Assembly (NCBI RefSeq): GCF_014652355.1
Contig: NZ_BMYQ01000012.1
Location: 75,264 to 120,663 of the forward strand
Length of the DNA stretch: 45,400 nucleotides
Direction: 5' to 3'
DNA from: Gemmobacter lanyuensis
GTDB taxonomy: Bacteria > Pseudomonadota > Alphaproteobacteria > Rhodobacterales > Rhodobacteraceae
Shown in pieces: positions 12,844-20,055 of this stretch. The notes under the pieces are model-generated. The model made no database searches. It was not told the DNA's origin and saw nothing but the letters and a program-made list of their open reading frames with translations. The translations under genes and the position numbers were made by a program. The number at the start of each line of letters is the position of its first letter. Within the stretch, counting starts at the first letter, position 1.

Positions 12844-13623
12844 GTGGCCGCGCAGATGACAGATTGGAACCCCGGGGCCTATGCAAGGTTCCGGGGTTTG
12901 CGTTTGCGCCCCGCGATGGACCTGCTGGCCCAGGTGGGCGGCATCCCCGACGGGGTGGTGGTCGATCTGGGCTGCGGCGATGGGGCGGTGGCGCCGCCGC
13001 TGCGGCAGGCATTTCCGGGGCATGATCTGATCGGGATCGACAGTTCCCCGGCCATGCTGGCACAGGCGCGCGGCTATGACCGGACCGAGGTCTGTGACAT
13101 TGCCGATTGGCAGATGAAGGGGACCGTCGCGCTGATCTTTTCCAATGCGGCCTTGCATTGGTTGGGGGATCATGCGCGGCTCTTGCCGCGTCTGGCGGCA
13201 AATCTGATGCCGGGCGGGGTGCTGGCGGTCCAGATGCCGGATCAGTTTCTGGCGCCGTCGCATCGGATCTTGCGGGATCTGGCAGAGACGATGTTCCCGG
13301 ATCGGTTCGATTTTGCGGATTACCACCCGCCGGTTCTGACGGCGGCGGAGTATTGGGACATTCTGGCGCCGCTGGGCGTGGCCACGATCTGGGAAACGAC
13401 CTACCTTCAGCCATTGTCCGCGTCCACCGCCGGGCATCCGGTCCGTGCCTTTACCGAAAGCACGGCGATGCGGCCGTTTCTGGCGCAGCTCGACCCAGAG
13501 GCGGCACAAGCCTTCACGGGCGCCTATGACGCGGCGCTTGCCGTGCCCTATCCGATTCAGCCGGACGGAGGGGCACTGATGCCCTTCCGCAGGCTGTTCA
13601 TGGTGCTGCGCGTCACAGGTTGA
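12844..13623 (+). CDS. Class I SAM-dependent methyltransferase, trans-aconitate methyltransferase-like
   Basis: A soluble methyltransferase of 259 residues. Motif I is VVVDLGCGDGAVAPPLRQAFPGHDLIGIDSSPAML, followed by a DIADWQ acidic motif and the post-motif SNAALHWLGDHARLLPRLAANLMPGGVLAVQMPDQF. The opening TDWNPGAYARFRGLRLRPAMDLLAQV and the NAALHWLGD segment resemble trans-aconitate 2-methyltransferase (Tam). Substrate assignment is nevertheless uncertain in this superfamily. It begins three bases after ftsH with GTG, and an ATG at 12856 (MTDWNPG) is an equally good start. It probably shares the ftsH transcript. Its last 11 bases overlap the end of the convergent RTX gene. Confidence 0.82.
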   Translation: MAAQMTDWNPGAYARFRGLRLRPAMDLLAQVGGIPDGVVVDLGCGDGAVAPPLRQAFPGHDLIGIDSSPAMLAQARGYDRTEVCDIADWQMKGTVALIFSNAALHWLGDHARLLPRLAANLMPGGVLAVQMPDQFLAPSHRILRDLAETMFPDRFDFADYHPPVLTAAEYWDILAPLGVATIWETTYLQPLSASTAGHPVRAFTESTAMRPFLAQLDPEAAQAFTGAYDAALAVPYPIQPDGGALMPFRRLFMVLRVTG

Positions 13624-14911
13624 AGTCGGATTCGATCAGCATCGGCCGTCCGTTGCCCAGCACGTCGATGGCAAAGTCAGAGATGCGATCCCCGTTCAGA
13701 TCGGCCAGAACGCGCTGCCCGTCTGCCGTATCTGCCACGCGCAGCTGACCCGCCTGCCCGGTAAAGACGGTCACGAAGGTAAAGCTGCCAAACCCGTCGG
13801 CAGCGCCATTGGCGTCGATCTGTGCAAGGCCGATGCGGTCGCCTTCAGCGCGGTTGAAATCGACGATGACATCGCGCCCGGTCGATAGGACGGTGCTTTC
13901 ATCCGCCTTCAGGAAGATGAAGCGGTCTGCCCCGGCGTCGCCCTGCAGGCGGTCGCGCCCCGCGGCGCCGTGCAGCACGTCATCGCCCACGCCGCCAAAA
14001 AGTCGGTCGTTGTCCTCATTGGCAAAGAGCATGTCATTGCCCTCGCCCCCGACCATGAAATCCGCACCGGCACCGCCATAGATCCTGTCGCCATTCCCCC
14101 CGCCGAAAAGCCGGTCATTGCCGTTCTGCCCGGCAATATAATCGAACCCCATCCCGCCGTAGGCAGTGTCGTTGGCGCCCCCCATGAACAAGTCGTCATT
14201 GCCGCCGGCGCCGTCAAAGATATTGGCGTTATAGTTGCCGCCCACGGCGCCCTCGACGCTGTCGCGCAGCTGATCGCCGAAATCGCTGCCGAGGATATTG
14301 TTGAAGCCGTTCAGCTGGTCGCCCGCCGCATGGCCTCCACGGCCGGTGGTCGTGGTGCCGAAGGTGAAGGTCACATTCACCGCGGCATCGGACCCGGCAT
14401 AGCTGACCCAGTCGGTCAGGTTAGCTCCGCCGGAAAGGGAATCGGCCCCGGCGCCGCCCGAAATGGTATCGCTGTCGTCGCCGCCGCTGATCGTGTCATT
14501 CCCGCCCTCGCCGAAGAGACGGTCGGCGCCATAGCTGCCGCTCATCGAATCTGCGCCGGTGCCACCGTAGATCACGTCATTTCCGGCATCGCCATTCAGG
14601 GTATCGTTCCCGCCTTCGCCGAGGATGCGGTTGTTCAGCTCGCTCCCATCGATCCAGTCCGCGCCGGAAGACCCGCGGGCGTTCTCGATTTGCCCGACCA
14701 CCACGAGGCGGTTGCCGGTATTGCCCACGTAATAGATGCCCGAAGACTGAAGCGTGACGCCGTTGAAAATGGACTAGCCCAGATCAATCGACTGGCTGGT
14801 ATGGGCCTCTCTCAGGATCATCCAGTCGATTCCGACACCATCATCAACCAGGGTCACGGTGCTGCTGCCATTGCTGACGAGGTCTTCGATGTAATAGAAG
14901 TTGTTGGCCAT
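13613..14911 (-). pseudogene. RTX calcium-binding protein gene interrupted by an in-frame amber codon
   Basis: Reading down the minus strand from the ATG at 14911, preceded by GGAGGATTGGGAG, a single frame runs for 432 codons to 13613. Codon 46 is TAG (14774-14776). Before the stop is MANNFYYIEDLVS ... ILREAHTSQSIDLG. After it the same frame continues SIFNGVTLQSSGIYYVGNTGNRLVVVGQIENARG, then about a dozen GGxGxDxL nonapeptide repeats, and a C-terminal sheet domain typical of type I secretion substrates (DRFIFLKADESTVL ... DVIVDFNRAEGDRI). The nearest downstream start, GTG at 14728, has no ribosome-binding site. No frameshift or deletion is visible, so this is a point nonsense change, a readthrough codon or a base error. 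No type I exporter genes lie nearby. Confidence 0.8.
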
Positions 14912-15199: not shown

Positions 15200-16876
15200 A
15201 TGTCGTTCAAGACAGATATTGAGATCGCGCGCGAAGCGAAGAAAAAGCCGATTCAAGAGATCGGCACCAAGCTTGGCATCCCGACCGAGCATCTGCTGCC
15301 CTACGGCCACGACAAGGCCAAGGTGAGCCAGGAGTTCATCCGCTCGCTCGACGGCAAGCAGGATGGCAAGCTGATCCTCGTGACGGCGATCAACCCGACC
15401 CCGGCGGGCGAAGGCAAGACCACCACCACCGTGGGTCTGGGCGATGGCCTGAACCGCATCGGCAAGAAAGCCGTGATCTGTATCCGTGAAGCCTCGCTCG
15501 GCCCGAACTTCGGGATGAAGGGTGGCGCAGCCGGCGGCGGCATGGCCCAGGTCGTCCCGATGGAGGAGATGAACCTCCACTTCACCGGCGACTTCCACGC
15601 CATCACCAGCGCCCACAACCTGCTGTCGGCGATGATCGACAACCACATCTACTGGGGCAACACCCTGGGGATCGACGAGCGTCGCGTCGTGTGGCGCCGC
15701 GTCATGGACATGAACGACCGCGCCCTGCGCGACATCGTTGTCTCGCTCGGTGGCGTGTCGAACGGCTTCCCGCGTCAGACCGGCTTTGACATCACCGTGG
15801 CCTCCGAAGTCATGGCAATCCTCTGCCTGTCGAACGACCTGGAAGACCTGCAGAAGCGTCTGGGCGACATCGTTGTGGCCTATACCCGCGACAAGACGCC
15901 GATCTACTGCCGCGACATCAAGGCCGACGGCGCCATGACCGTGCTGCTGAAAGATGCGATGCAGCCGAACCTGGTGCAGACGCTGGAAAACAACCCGGCC
16001 TTCGTGCATGGCGGCCCGTTCGCCAATATCGCGCACGGCTGCAACTCGGTCATCGCGACCAAGACCGCGCTGAAGCTGGGCGAATATGTTGTCACCGAAG
16101 CGGGCTTCGGGGCCGACCTCGGCGCAGAGAAGTTCTTTGACATCAAGTGCCGCAAGGCGGGTCTGAAACCGGCAGCTGCCGTGATCGTGGCCACCGTCCG
16201 CGCCATGAAGATGAACGGCGGCGTCGCCAAGGCCGATCTGGGGGCCGAGAATGTCGAGGCCGTCAAGAAGGGCTGCCCGAACCTGGGCCGTCACATCGCC
16301 AACGTGAAATCCTTCGGCGTGCCGGTCGTCGTGGCGATCAACCACTTCTACAGCGACACCGATGCCGAAGTGGCGGCGGTGAAGGAATATGTGGCTGCCC
16401 AGGGCGCCGAGGCCATCCTCTGCAAGCACTGGGCGCAAGGCTCGGCCGGGATCGAAGATCTGGCCAATGCCGTCGTCAAACTGGCGGAATCGGGCGCTTC
16501 GAACTTTGCCCCGCTCTACCCGGACGAAATGCCGCTGTTCCAGAAGATCGAAACCATCGCCAAGCGCATCTACCACGCTGATGAAGTGCTGGCCGACAAG
16601 TCGATCCGCGATCAGCTGAAAGCTTGGGAAGCCGCTGGCTACGGTCATCTTCCGATCTGCATGGCCAAGACGCAGTACTCGTTCTCGACCGACCCGAACC
16701 TGCGCGGCGCGCCGACGGGCCATTCGGTGCCGGTGCGTGAAGTGCGTCTGTCGGCCGGTGCCGGCTTCATCGTCGCCATCTGCGGCGAGATCATGACCAT
16801 GCCGGGCCTGCCGAAAGTGCCTTCGGCTGAAGTGATCCGCCTGAACGACGAAGGCCACGTCGAAGGCCTGTTCTGA
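15200..16876 (+). CDS. fhs: Formate-tetrahydrofolate ligase
   Basis: This enzyme joins formate to tetrahydrofolate with ATP to give 10-formyl-tetrahydrofolate, a central step of one-carbon metabolism. At 558 residues it is a full-length monofunctional enzyme. Visible landmarks are the nucleotide-binding loop [18 protein letters not shown], the downstream [36 protein letters not shown] segment, and [17 protein letters not shown] is preceded by AAGGGAG. It is followed by a chorismate mutase-type gene and two folD genes on the same strand. This suggests a unit supplying or draining folate-bound carbon, as in Rhodobacterales that use formate, methylated amines or DMSP. Confidence 0.97.
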
Positions 16877-16944
16877 TCAGCGGCCGCGCCTTGCCATCAT
16901 ACCCGCGAGGGTTTACCTCGCGGGAAACCTCATCGGAGGATATG

Positions 16945-17238
16945 ATGAAGGCCCCGACTGATTGCCACAACATGACCGAACTGCGCGCCGCCATCGATGC
17001 GCTGGACAGTCAGATCGTGGCGCTGATTGCGCGGCGGGCCGGTTACATCGACCGGGCCGCCGAACTCAAACCCGCCGAGGGTCTACCCGCCCGCATTGAT
17101 GAACGTGTCGAGGATGTGGTGGCCAAGGTCTGCGCCCGCGCCAATGCAGAGGGGCTGGACCCCGCGCTTGTCGAACAGATCTGGCGGATGATGATCGAAT
17201 GGTCGATTGCCCGCGAAGAGCAGGTGCTGGGACGGTAA
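16945..17238 (+). CDS. AroQ-type chorismate mutase family protein
   Basis: A small all-helical protein of 97 residues in the AroQ/PchB fold family, whose members rearrange chorismate to prephenate or split isochorismate. Helix 1 has ELRAAIDALDSQIVALIARRAGYIDRAAELK, with the expected early Arg, second Arg and Lys. The next helix has RIDERVEDVVAKVCARANAEGL, and the last one LVEQIWRMMIEWSIAREE. GGAGGA at 16935-16940 favours the second of two tandem ATG codons, at 16945. The frame is open upstream to 16891 without a better start. Its place between fhs and folD is notable because no other aromatic-pathway gene is present. True activity is unproven from sequence. Confidence 0.85.
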   Translation: MKAPTDCHNMTELRAAIDALDSQIVALIARRAGYIDRAAELKPAEGLPARIDERVEDVVAKVCARANAEGLDPALVEQIWRMMIEWSIAREEQVLGR

Positions 17239-17322
17239 TCCGCGCGCCGACGCCCGATGCGCTGGCAGGGGATCGTGATGTTTCAAGGGGTTGGTGCGCC
17301 ACCCCGTCAGAGGACGACAGCG

Positions 17323-18216
17323 ATGACCGCTACCCTGATTGACGGCAAGGCCATTGCGGCCCGCATGGTCGAAGAGGTCCGCGCCGATGCGGCCGCGCTG
17401 GCCGAGCGGGGCTGGGCGCCGCGCCTCGTGTCGATTTCCGTGGGCGATGTCGCCGCGGCCGAGCTTTACGTCCGCAACCAGCAGAAAAGCGCAGAAGCCG
17501 CAGGCCTGCAGTTCGAGGCACGCAATTACCCCGCCGAGATCAGCCTGGAGCAGCTGACCGGCGTGCTGATGGGCCTGAACGCGGATCCGCGCGTGAACGG
17601 CATCATCATCCAGCGCCCGCTTCCGGCGCATATCCCGGTCAAGACGCTGCAGAAGGCCATCCATCCGCTGAAGGATGTCGAGGGCATGCACCCTGCCTCG
17701 ATCGGGAATATCGTTTACAACGACCTCGCCCTTGGCCCCTGCACGGCGGTGGCGGCGGTCGAGATTCTGAAAACCCTGCCCTTGAACATCCAGGGGCTGG
17801 ATGTCTGCGTGATCGGCCATAGCGAGATCGTGGGCAAGCCCATCGCCTTCCTGATGATGGGTCTGGGCGCAACGGTCACCGTCTGCCACCATATGACGCG
17901 GCAGGTTGCCGTCCACAGCCGCGCGGCCGATGCCGTGTTCGTGGCGGTGGGCAAGCCCGGTCTGGTCACGGGCGAGATGCTGAAACCCGGCGCCGCGCTG
18001 ATCGATATCGGGATCAACCGCATCACCGATGCGGACGGCAAGGGCCGGACCGTCGGCGACGCTGATTTCGACAGCTGTTCAAAGGTTGCGGGCTGGATCA
18101 CCCCGGTTCCGGGCGGGGTGGGGCCGGTCACGGTGGCCACGCTGCTCAAGAACGCGGTGCTGGCGACGCGGATGCAAATGGATCATTACTCTGCCGCCTT
18201 CGCGGTGGAACGCTGA
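17323..18216 (+). CDS. FolD paralogue with altered active site (first copy)
   Basis: A 297-residue member of the bifunctional methylenetetrahydrofolate dehydrogenase/methenyltetrahydrofolate cyclohydrolase family. It keeps the fold landmarks: GIIIQRPLP, GHSEIVGKPIAFLMM in the Rossmann domain, and [17 protein letters not shown] near the end. In the YVxxKxK signature the catalytic Lys is Gln53 (YVRNQQKS). The preceding PAS motif has become AAA. The DVDGF motif has become DVEGM, with Glu120 in place of Asp121. In human FolD a Lys-to-Gln change at this site removes cyclohydrolase but leaves dehydrogenase activity. The copy may therefore be a dedicated dehydrogenase or a regulator, which is inference. 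ATG is preceded by GAGGACGACAGCG. It is 12 bases before the second copy. Confidence 0.9.
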   Translation: MTATLIDGKAIAARMVEEVRADAAALAERGWAPRLVSISVGDVAAAELYVRNQQKSAEAAGLQFEARNYPAEISLEQLTGVLMGLNADPRVNGIIIQRPLPAHIPVKTLQKAIHPLKDVEGMHPASIGNIVYNDLALGPCTAVAAVEILKTLPLNIQGLDVCVIGHSEIVGKPIAFLMMGLGATVTVCHHMTRQVAVHSRAADAVFVAVGKPGLVTGEMLKPGAALIDIGINRITDADGKGRTVGDADFDSCSKVAGWITPVPGGVGPVTVATLLKNAVLATRMQMDHYSAAFAVER

Positions 18217-18228
18217 GGAGACAAGGCC

Positions 18229-19119
18229 ATGACGGCAGCAATCATCGACGGCAAGGCCTTTGCGGCCAAGGTGCGGGGCGAAGTGGCGGCACATGTCGCG
18301 CGCCTGAAGGAAGAACACGGCATCCAGCCCGGTCTGGCCGTGGTTCTGGTGGGCGAAGACCCGGCAAGCCAGGTCTATGTGTCCTCCAAGGGCAAATCGA
18401 CCGTTGAGGTGGGCATGAAATCGGTCGAGCACAAGCTGCCTGCCGACACCTCCGAGGCTGATCTGCTGGCGCTGATCGCGCGTCTGAATGCTGACAGCTC
18501 GATCCACGGCATTCTGGTGCAACTGCCGCTGCCGGGGCATCTGAACTCGGAACTCGTGATCAACTCGATCGATCCGGCCAAGGATGTGGACGGGTTCCAC
18601 ATCTCGAACGTCGGTCTTCTGGGCACGGGGCAGAAGTCGATGGTTCCCTGCACGCCGCTGGGCTGCCTGATGATGCTGCGTGACCATCACGGGTCGCTGG
18701 CCGGGCTGAATGCCGTGGTCGTGGGCCGGTCGAACATCGTGGGCAAGCCGATGGCGCAGCTGCTGCTGGGCGACAGCTGCACCGTGACCATCGCGCATAG
18801 CCGCACCAAGGATCTGGCCGCGGTCTGCCGCGGGGCCGATATCCTCGTGGCCGCCGTGGGCCGCCCCGAGATGATCACCGGCGACATGGTGAAGCCGGGC
18901 GCCACCGTGATCGACGTGGGCATCAACCGGATCGAGCGGGACGGCAAGGGTAAGCTGGTGGGCGATGTCCATTTCGACAGCGCCAAAGAGGTGGCCGGTG
19001 CCATCACCCCGGTGCCGGGTGGCGTGGGGCCGATGACCATTGCCTGCCTGCTGGCCAATACGCTGACGGCCTGCTGCCGCGCCAATGGCCTGCCCGAACC
19101 CAAGGGTCTGACAGCCTGA
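18229..19119 (+). CDS. folD: Bifunctional methylenetetrahydrofolate dehydrogenase/cyclohydrolase FolD (second copy)
   Basis: The canonical FolD of 296 residues, which oxidises methylene-tetrahydrofolate and hydrolyses methenyl-tetrahydrofolate to the 10-formyl form. All catalytic residues are present: Lys54 in YVSSKGKS, Gln in GILVQLPLP, and Asp in [12 protein letters not shown]. The cofactor domain has [18 protein letters not shown], and the C-terminus has [20 protein letters not shown]. Start ATG follows GAGGAGACAAGGCC. It sits immediately after the altered paralogue and downstream of fhs, which makes the formate branch complete. A terminator-like hairpin follows. Confidence 0.96.
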
Positions 19120-19167: not shown

Positions 19168-19269
19168 TAAGCATTTGCACTGCCATATTTTTCCGCGAAT
19201 TATGATTGCGAAATAAAACTTCTGCGCGTATGCCTTGGGCGTGGTTGTTAGCGATTGCTGATTGGACAG

Positions 19270-20055
19270 ATGGCCGGATTCCTGACGGTTCTACGCGCGG
19301 ACCTCAAAAGTCCCGTTCCCTTGATCGCATGGGTTGTTCTGAGCCTGATCATCGGCATATCTGGCCCCTTCGGCAGCTACGTGGCGCTTCAGCCGGGGCC
19401 ACGGCTGCTTTACTGGTTCATCTTCGTGGGTGTGGGCATTTTGGTGGGGATGGTGATCCGCGCCGTTGTTCACGGCCTGTGGGGCCTGCGCGATTTCCAG
19501 CGCGGGGCTTTTCTGGTCGCCCTGCTGGCCACGGTCGTGCTGACGCCGCCGCTTTATTTTCTGGCAGATGCCGTGTTTGACCATGCGCGCGCATCGACCC
19601 CTTCGATGGCTGATATGGCCACCTTCATCTTCGCGGTGTCACTGTCGCTGGGCGCATTCCGGCATTCCGTTGCGGATGCAGTGCCGCACTTTGCCGAAGT
19701 GGCGATTGCCGTTCCGGCCGAGCCTGAATTGCCCCTGATCGTTCAGCGCCTTGATTCGGCGTTGCAGGGGCGGCTGGTCGCGTTGACGGTGCGTGACCAT
19801 TATGTCGATGTCTATACGACGGCGGGGCAGGGGGCGGTGCTGATCCGTCTGGGCGATGCGATCCGCGAAGCTGCGCCCGAAGACGGCGATCAGATCCACC
19901 GCTCACACTGGGTGGCATGGTGGGCCGTGACCGGGGTCGAGCGTGAGGGCGGCAAGCATTACGTGCGCCTGTGCCCCGCGCAGCGCCTTCCGGTCAGCAA
20001 AACTCATCTCGGCAAGCTGGAAGAGCGCGGCCTGCTGGAGCGCGAGCCCGCATAG
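19270..20055 (+). CDS. Membrane-anchored LytTR DNA-binding regulator
   Basis: A 261-residue protein with four predicted N-terminal membrane segments: PLIAWVVLSLIIGISGPFG, LLYWFIFVGVGILVGMVIRAVV, AFLVALLATVVLTPPLYFLA and a shorter one near residue 125. It ends in a C-terminal LytTR domain (about residues 160-255). That domain shows LVALTVRDHYVDVYTTAGQGAVLIRLGDAI, HRSHWVAWWAVTGVERE and YVRLCPAQRLPVSKTHLGKL. Such proteins may bind DNA while tethered to the inner membrane. TTG and ATG starts are both available, and I use ATG at 19270. No sensor kinase adjoins it. The final 52 bases overlap the end of the convergent pdeM gene. Confidence 0.85.
   Translation: MAGFLTVLRADLKSPVPLIAWVVLSLIIGISGPFGSYVALQPGPRLLYWFIFVGVGILVGMVIRAVVHGLWGLRDFQRGAFLVALLATVVLTPPLYFLADAVFDHARASTPSMADMATFIFAVSLSLGAFRHSVADAVPHFAEVAIAVPAEPELPLIVQRLDSALQGRLVALTVRDHYVDVYTTAGQGAVLIRLGDAIREAAPEDGDQIHRSHWVAWWAVTGVEREGGKHYVRLCPAQRLPVSKTHLGKLEERGLLEREPA

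Follow-up and report, generated by a model that had tools for sequence, protein, structure and literature searches.

A conserved alphaproteobacterial FolD paralogue without the catalytic lysine, a candidate methylene-tetrahydrofolate dehydrogenase

In Gemmobacter lanyuensis, a 45,400-nucleotide stretch of contig NZ_BMYQ01000012.1 (positions 75,264 to 120,663 of the forward strand, hereafter the window) carries two folD genes in succession downstream of fhs, the gene for formate-tetrahydrofolate ligase, and in the product of the first the catalytic lysine of FolD is replaced by glutamine. This arrangement raises the question of what an altered FolD contributes beside a canonical one. The variant is an old, maintained alphaproteobacterial paralogue that has been placed next to folD, and it is rather likely to be a dedicated 5,10-methylene-tetrahydrofolate (methylene-H4F) dehydrogenase without methenyl-H4F cyclohydrolase activity, which would act in the oxidation of methyl-derived one-carbon (C1) units together with canonical FolD and Fhs.

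Residue signature and age of the variant FolD

The variant (297 amino acids; 17323..18216, + strand) contains the PF00763 and PF02882 domains and passes both curated Pfam cut-offs (107.6 against 32.8 bits and 183.3 against 27 bits, respectively). Its start was set at 17323, where the alignments with homologues begin, in preference to an in-frame ATG at 17257. Its predicted model shows the three-dimensional fold of FolD, so that both domain content and predicted fold assign the protein to the FolD superfamily. Five of its codons, all on the + strand, depart from the canonical enzyme at positions of interest: CAG at 17479..17481 gives Gln53 in place of the catalytic Lys54 (E. coli numbering), CGC at 17614..17616 gives Arg98 in place of Leu99 in the VQLPLP motif (IQRPLP in the variant), and GAG at 17680..17682 gives Glu120 in place of the pterin-binding Asp121. 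The remaining two encode histidines, namely His166 (CAT, 17818..17820) in the cofactor loop GHSEIVGKP, where canonical alphaproteobacterial FolD has Arg167 and E. coli Ala, and His190 (CAT, 17890..17892), where the canonical neighbour has Ser191 and E. coli Arg. In addition, A44-A45-A46 occupies the place of the canonical PAS, with Ala46 for Ser47, while Tyr49, Gln97 and the PGGVGP loop are retained. The initial annotation had recognised Gln53, Glu120 and the AAA triplet correctly, and had regarded the Rossmann and PGGVGP motifs as intact; this holds for the latter but only in part for the former, in which GRSNIVG has become GHSEIVG and AHSRTK has become CHHMTR. Arg98, His166 and His190 had been overlooked.

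The second gene (18229..19119, + strand; 296 amino acids) begins 12 bases after the variant coding sequence and encodes a canonical bifunctional FolD over the NCBIfam cut-off NF010785. It carries Lys54, Gln98 and Asp121 within the standard VQLPLP and DVDGF contexts, as first described, and is 44% identical to the variant by BLASTP.

The substitutions characterize a whole group of proteins. They were counted in an alignment of 116 variants and 118 canonical proteins, after removal of two fragments and of identical sequences. Proteins were assigned to either set according to which of the two window proteins gave the better BLAST score, and thus independently of the signature residues. All 116 variants possess Gln53, Arg98, Glu120, His166 and Gln97, and 115 possess His190; the features of bifunctional FolD are accordingly split, the Lys of YxxxK and the Asp of DVDG being absent and the Gln of VQLPLP present in every variant. 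At the corresponding positions, the 118 canonical proteins have Lys, Asp and Arg without exception, Ser in 117 (position of His190) and Leu in 116 (Phe in the other two). Ser is found at the Ser47 position in just 12 of the 116 variants, and, by the conservation thresholds applied, 33 alignment columns are fixed differently between the two sets. One of the dropped fragments is the rear portion of a copy with a broken reading frame (locus L122), the front open reading frame (ORF) of which was kept among the 116 and may be the source of some odd letters past residue 237. Because the scan patterns that yielded the best 80 loci (see below) contained Glu120 and His166, the count was redone on 42 motif-independent variants, found by profile or tblastn, and all 42 carry Gln53, Arg98, Glu120, His166 and His190. 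The signature is far beyond chance.

Sequence divergence places the origin of the variant well before the present gene pair. Pairwise identity amounts to 41.4% between the variant and the canonical FolD of the window, 40.1% between the variant and E. coli FolD, and 53.1% between the canonical protein and E. coli FolD. A quick maximum-likelihood tree was built from 53 variants, 29 canonical proteins and E. coli FolD. In it, the variants form a single clade (Shimodaira-Hasegawa-like approximate likelihood ratio support, SH-aLRT, 99) whose stem measures 2.31 changes per column; because the tree program warns of long branches, the position of the root is unsure. The Gln/Glu form, which the initial annotation had suggested might be a conserved clade, is therefore just that, and not a peculiarity of one strain. 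The description as a tandem FolD paralogue is right as to adjacency, but the gene is ancient: a recent tandem duplication is rejected, since the variant is equally far from its neighbour and from E. coli FolD and the variants are monophyletic. The ratio of nonsynonymous to synonymous substitution rates (dN/dS, NG86 method) ranges from 0.055 to 0.14 over four pairs and indicates purifying selection. This low ratio, together with the lack of an internal stop in any listed variant match, also rules out a pseudogene.

Distribution and genomic neighbourhood

Within the order of the window, a close homologue occurs in 14 of 101 genomes, the window's own included (all 101 belong to the window's family). 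Nine of these, at 82-100% identity, form the window's subclade (group A) and five, at 56-60%, form group B; the other 87 genomes gave matches at about 36-53% only, the highest ones being fragments. In a sample of the alphaproteobacterial class, the variant was detected, with 1e-90 as the threshold, in 20 of 289 genomes and 15 of 219 genera, every listed hit lying at 3.5e-134 or better. A phylum-wide sample returned 15 of 397 genomes at 1e-105, every one of them from this class, in a set whose make-up by class was not broken down. A motif-based scan of named genomes recovered at least 578 confirmed relatives among 594 stretches, and the best 80 loci, which were kept, include Gemmobacter, Tabrizicola, Rhodobacter, Thioclava, Aliiroseovarius, Shimia, Nioella and Pelagimonas.

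In 77 of these best 80 loci, the variant precedes canonical folD at a distance of no more than 317 bases (no more than 25 bases in 65 of them), and fhs is found upstream in 74. The constant company of fhs and canonical folD that had been envisaged for the variant thus describes the window's subclade; elsewhere the gene is located by tdm, tmm or gmaS, near formate dehydrogenase or sarcosine oxidase genes, or among no recognised C1 genes. In group B, the loci L040-L043 contain tdm, tmm and a gmaS-type synthetase, and in L042 a trimethylamine N-oxide demethylase, a trimethylamine monooxygenase and a type III glutamate-ammonia ligase exceed their NCBIfam cut-offs; in L039, also of group B, neither tdm nor tmm was found, and just an ORF distantly resembling glutamine synthetase was seen. 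In another subclade, represented by L151, L159 and the Ponticoccus alexandrii plasmid p-SCP4, the order is fhs-folD-variant and the folD genes overlap by four bases, and on p-SCP4 the series comprises formate dehydrogenase genes, fhs, folD, the variant and tdm. Since the two gene orders occur in different parts of the tree, the pairing of folD with the variant probably arose at least twice. Further loci include mgsC- and gmaS-like genes (L145), a tmm-like gene (L155), a formate dehydrogenase alpha gene adjoining the variant (L162), and sarcosine oxidase alpha and thymidylate synthase genes nearby (L163), and in Paracoccus aminovorans the variant neighbours a gene for a BCCT transporter, and choline genes are located at a distance of about 8 kb.

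The loci read widely without the help of the motif number 35 (L033-L043, L145-L163, L195, L196 and L199-L201) and were scored for fhs, folD, tdm, tmm, gmaS, mgsC, formate dehydrogenase and sarcosine oxidase. At least one such gene is present at 17 of them, or 18 with one L157 ORF read by eye. Taken together, the neighbours point to tetrahydrofolate-linked C1 oxidation.

Three further arrangements were observed. A close relative of the window's variant (L065, 2961-10179) forms a cluster with fhs and tmm, in the order fhs-variant-tmm; gmaS and mgsC are encoded on the opposite strand, and no canonical folD was found within reach of the variant. Genome G354 holds two fhs-folD-variant units (L151 and L159) on different contigs. 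Three loci from large-genome alphaproteobacteria combine the variant with a run of glycolate-oxidase-subunit-like ORFs, read by eye; the two are arranged tail to tail in L199 and L201 and stand about 2 kb apart in L200.

Canonical partners accompany the variant at the genome level as well. Each of the 32 carriers examined encodes one or more additional FolD proteins that exceed the Pfam cut-off and retain Lys and Asp; in many of these genomes the variant gene is far from canonical folD. The only other FolD of one carrier (G113; L190, 728-1741, - strand) is itself divergent, with ELPLGP for VQLPLP and hence Glu for Gln, Lys and Asp being kept, and is possibly another odd form of the enzyme. The presence of fhs is not discriminating, as it occurs in 32 of 32 carriers yet also in 35 of 36 non-carriers. 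The gmaS gene was detected in 20 of 32 carriers versus 15 of 48 non-carriers (Fisher p 0.011) and full-length tdm in 16 of 32 versus 8 of 48 (Fisher p 0.0025), in tests that ignore relatedness and in which carriers include other families while non-carriers all belong to the window's family. Matches to tdm were counted only if the alignment begins before query residue 30, a looser threshold admitting partial matches. The overall association stems from subclades other than group A; in group B, both genes are present in five of five genomes.

In the window itself, fhs (15200..16876, + strand; PF01268, over the NF010030 cut-off) is the sole fhs match in the assembly, which likewise holds only two PF02882 matches, the variant and the canonical FolD. 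Between fhs and the variant lies a gene for a type II chorismate mutase (CM_2; 16933..17238, + strand), which intervenes in the otherwise correctly described series of fhs and two folD genes. This chorismate mutase/isochorismate-lyase-like protein is part of a recurrent fhs-CM-folD neighbourhood: among the best 80 loci, its ORF stands between the two folD genes in 4 and before the variant in 45, and none was found in 31. As a partner specific to the variant it is rejected, being also located between fhs and folD in 8 of 16 variant-less loci. Other genes of the surroundings are one for a methyltransferase resembling trans-aconitate 2-methyltransferase (12844-13623, + strand; score under that model's cut-off), one for an RTX calcium-binding repeat protein (13613-14728, - strand; PF00353 in six stretches) between the methyltransferase gene and fhs, and, downstream of folD, one with a C-terminal LytTR DNA-binding domain (19255-20055, + strand; 28.7 bits against a cut-off of 22.6).

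Proposed function and competing explanations

The initial annotation suggested that the cyclohydrolase is lost and that the pair may split the two half-reactions of FolD, in view of a human Lys56Gln mutant that reportedly loses cyclohydrolase and keeps dehydrogenase activity. Clade-wide conservation and the Lys/Asp FolD of all 32 carriers argue for such a division, and a laboratory precedent exists in E. coli, whose FolD K54N has undetectable cyclohydrolase and about 19% dehydrogenase activity and is carolacton-insensitive (PMC5688156). In related enzymes, human Lys56 and Gln100 have been assigned to substrate activation and to proton transfer in the cyclohydrolase reaction, Asp125 to binding of the pterin head and Tyr52 to stacking (PMC3368264, PMC3338484, PMC6443876, PMC9173628); Leu101 is counted among the seven residues regarded as key in human/Leishmania FolD (PMC3368264), and human Asp125 has been described as invariant (PMC6443876). 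One of these studies doubts a catalytic role of the lysine in the dehydrogenase step and leaves its role in the cyclohydrolase step open (PMC9173628). On the strength of these residue roles and of K54N, the variant would be expected to be an active H4F dehydrogenase without cyclohydrolase activity, presumably working in the oxidative direction.

In the proposed pathway, methyl groups of methylated amines, glycine betaine/choline or similar compounds would give rise to methylene-H4F, which the variant would oxidize. The methenyl ring would be opened by the neighbouring canonical FolD or by spontaneous hydrolysis, methenyl-H4F being able to open spontaneously as well (PMC5688156). Fhs would then free formate with a yield of adenosine triphosphate (ATP), and formate dehydrogenase would complete the oxidation. 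As to the cofactor, His190 probably takes the place of human Ser197, as judged from the HS/HH motif, a residue with a role in the choice between nicotinamide adenine dinucleotide phosphate (NADP) and its unphosphorylated form, NAD (PMC9173628). His166 and His190 replace the canonical Arg and Ser, and E. coli FolD, an NADP user (PMC6443876), has Ala and Arg there; given these residues, the reading of NAD specificity from the two histidines was downgraded, and the sequence does not decide between the two cofactors.

Several observations weigh against a dedicated dehydrogenase of methyl-group oxidation. Most sampled genomes of the order (87 of 101) do without the gene, about half of the 35 motif-independent loci show no recognised C1 gene, and to our knowledge no activity has been reported for any member of the group found here. 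Normal folate binding is not assured, in view of the clade's Glu and the new Arg98 at the pterin end. Moreover, group A is unlinked to gmaS (3 of 9 genomes versus 15 of 48 non-carriers) or tdm (1 of 9 versus 8 of 48). The test for linkage between methylamine genes and the window's subclade was thus negative, which ties this subclade to a general fhs-folD module and not to methylamines.

The changes of Asp to Glu and Leu to Arg occur jointly in the variant but not in K54N, and they would be compatible with another substrate or another mode of binding. A bolder form of the proposal, put forward tentatively, is that of an unrecognised alphaproteobacterial C1-oxidation enzyme, a FolD-derived dehydrogenase re-tuned at its pterin and cofactor ends to burn methyl-derived C1 units, to which Tdm, sarcosine oxidase and related enzymes might pass the substrate directly and which would leave ring opening to canonical FolD. 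It is less probable that the remodelled pterin end (Gln53, Arg98, Glu120 and Ala46) serves a different C1 pterin species, adduct or direction. The enzyme would then be a dehydrogenase or ligand-capturer for a substrate other than plain 5,10-methylene-H4F, for instance one to which Tdm, sarcosine oxidase or similar GcvT-domain enzymes hand over methylene-H4F or formaldehyde-H4F adducts directly. Three of the seven key human/Leishmania residues (PMC3368264) change together and are then frozen, the long stem fits a functional shift, and the neighbours include Tdm, with its GcvT-like part, and sarcosine oxidase alpha; however, Tyr49, Gln97, the glycine loop and the entire fold are kept, Glu for Asp is conservative, and no evidence here names another substrate.

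That the variant is still bifunctional, with Gln53, Arg98 and the two histidines as an alternative acid-base group and with the gene supplying extra capacity, perhaps with NAD for NADP, appears improbable. Arg98 adjoins Gln97 in the same loop, and RefSeq calls two annotated plasmid copies 'bifunctional', presumably by homology, but E. coli cyclohydrolase activity needs Lys54 (PMC5688156), none of the 32 carriers lacks another Lys/Asp FolD, and the variant falls short of the cut-off of every one of the 25 NCBIfam FolD models shown, out of 30 matched (best 289.4 bits against 421). With the Lys and the Asp missing and those cut-offs unattained, the RefSeq label is therefore not trustworthy. A non-catalytic folate- or cofactor-binding subunit with a modulating effect on canonical FolD, e.g., in mixed dimers, is very improbable, as the adjacency to canonical folD in most of the best loci and the dimeric state of E. 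coli FolD (PMC5688156) are offset by the high conservation of the other active-site residues and the Rossmann domain and by the many carriers in which the two genes are far apart.

Significance and relation to known systems

The tetrahydrofolate-linked pathway is regarded as the route of methyl-group oxidation in marine alphaproteobacteria (PMC4744692, PMC3160333), and the map of choline oxidation in Roseobacter contains one bifunctional FolD step (PMC4744692). If the dedicated dehydrogenase proposed here is real, the variant would split this single step in two, and, should a separate dehydrogenase operate in many alphaproteobacteria, pathway reconstructions, NADH/NADPH balances and 'bifunctional' annotations would need correcting. 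It would also represent a natural experiment on the separation of FolD's two activities. No mention of a naturally occurring, lysine-less FolD paralogue in bacteria was found in the accessible portions of the open-access literature consulted (PMC3160333, PMC4744692, PMC4543880, PMC9173628, PMC11064299, PMC12478193, PMC13390433, PMC11306105, PMC6443876, PMC3368264, PMC3338484, PMC5688156 and PMC5934484).

The closest laboratory counterpart, E. coli FolD K54N, likewise lacks the lysine, but it is a lab-selected single mutation with very slow growth (PMC5688156), whereas the variant is a natural clade with many further fixed changes. Compared with the canonical bacterial FolD of E. coli and P. 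aeruginosa, the variant shares the two-domain fold, the active-site helix, the Tyr, Gln97 and the PGGVGP loop at 40-44% identity; it differs in the changes of Lys54 to Gln, Leu99 to Arg and Asp121 to Glu, in the frequent loss of Ser47 and in its altered cofactor loop. Yeast MTD1, an NAD-dependent methylene-H4F dehydrogenase (PDB 1edz), is eukaryotic and shows 27% aligned identity to the variant. MTD1 has been reported to be a monofunctional dehydrogenase, and the variant would work alike, presumably after an independent loss of cyclohydrolase activity. The dehydrogenase MtdA of methylotrophs presumably belongs to another protein family than the FolD-derived variant. In these organisms, MtdA and Fch place dehydrogenase and cyclohydrolase on separate proteins (PMC4543880), the same division of labour as is proposed for the variant and canonical FolD.
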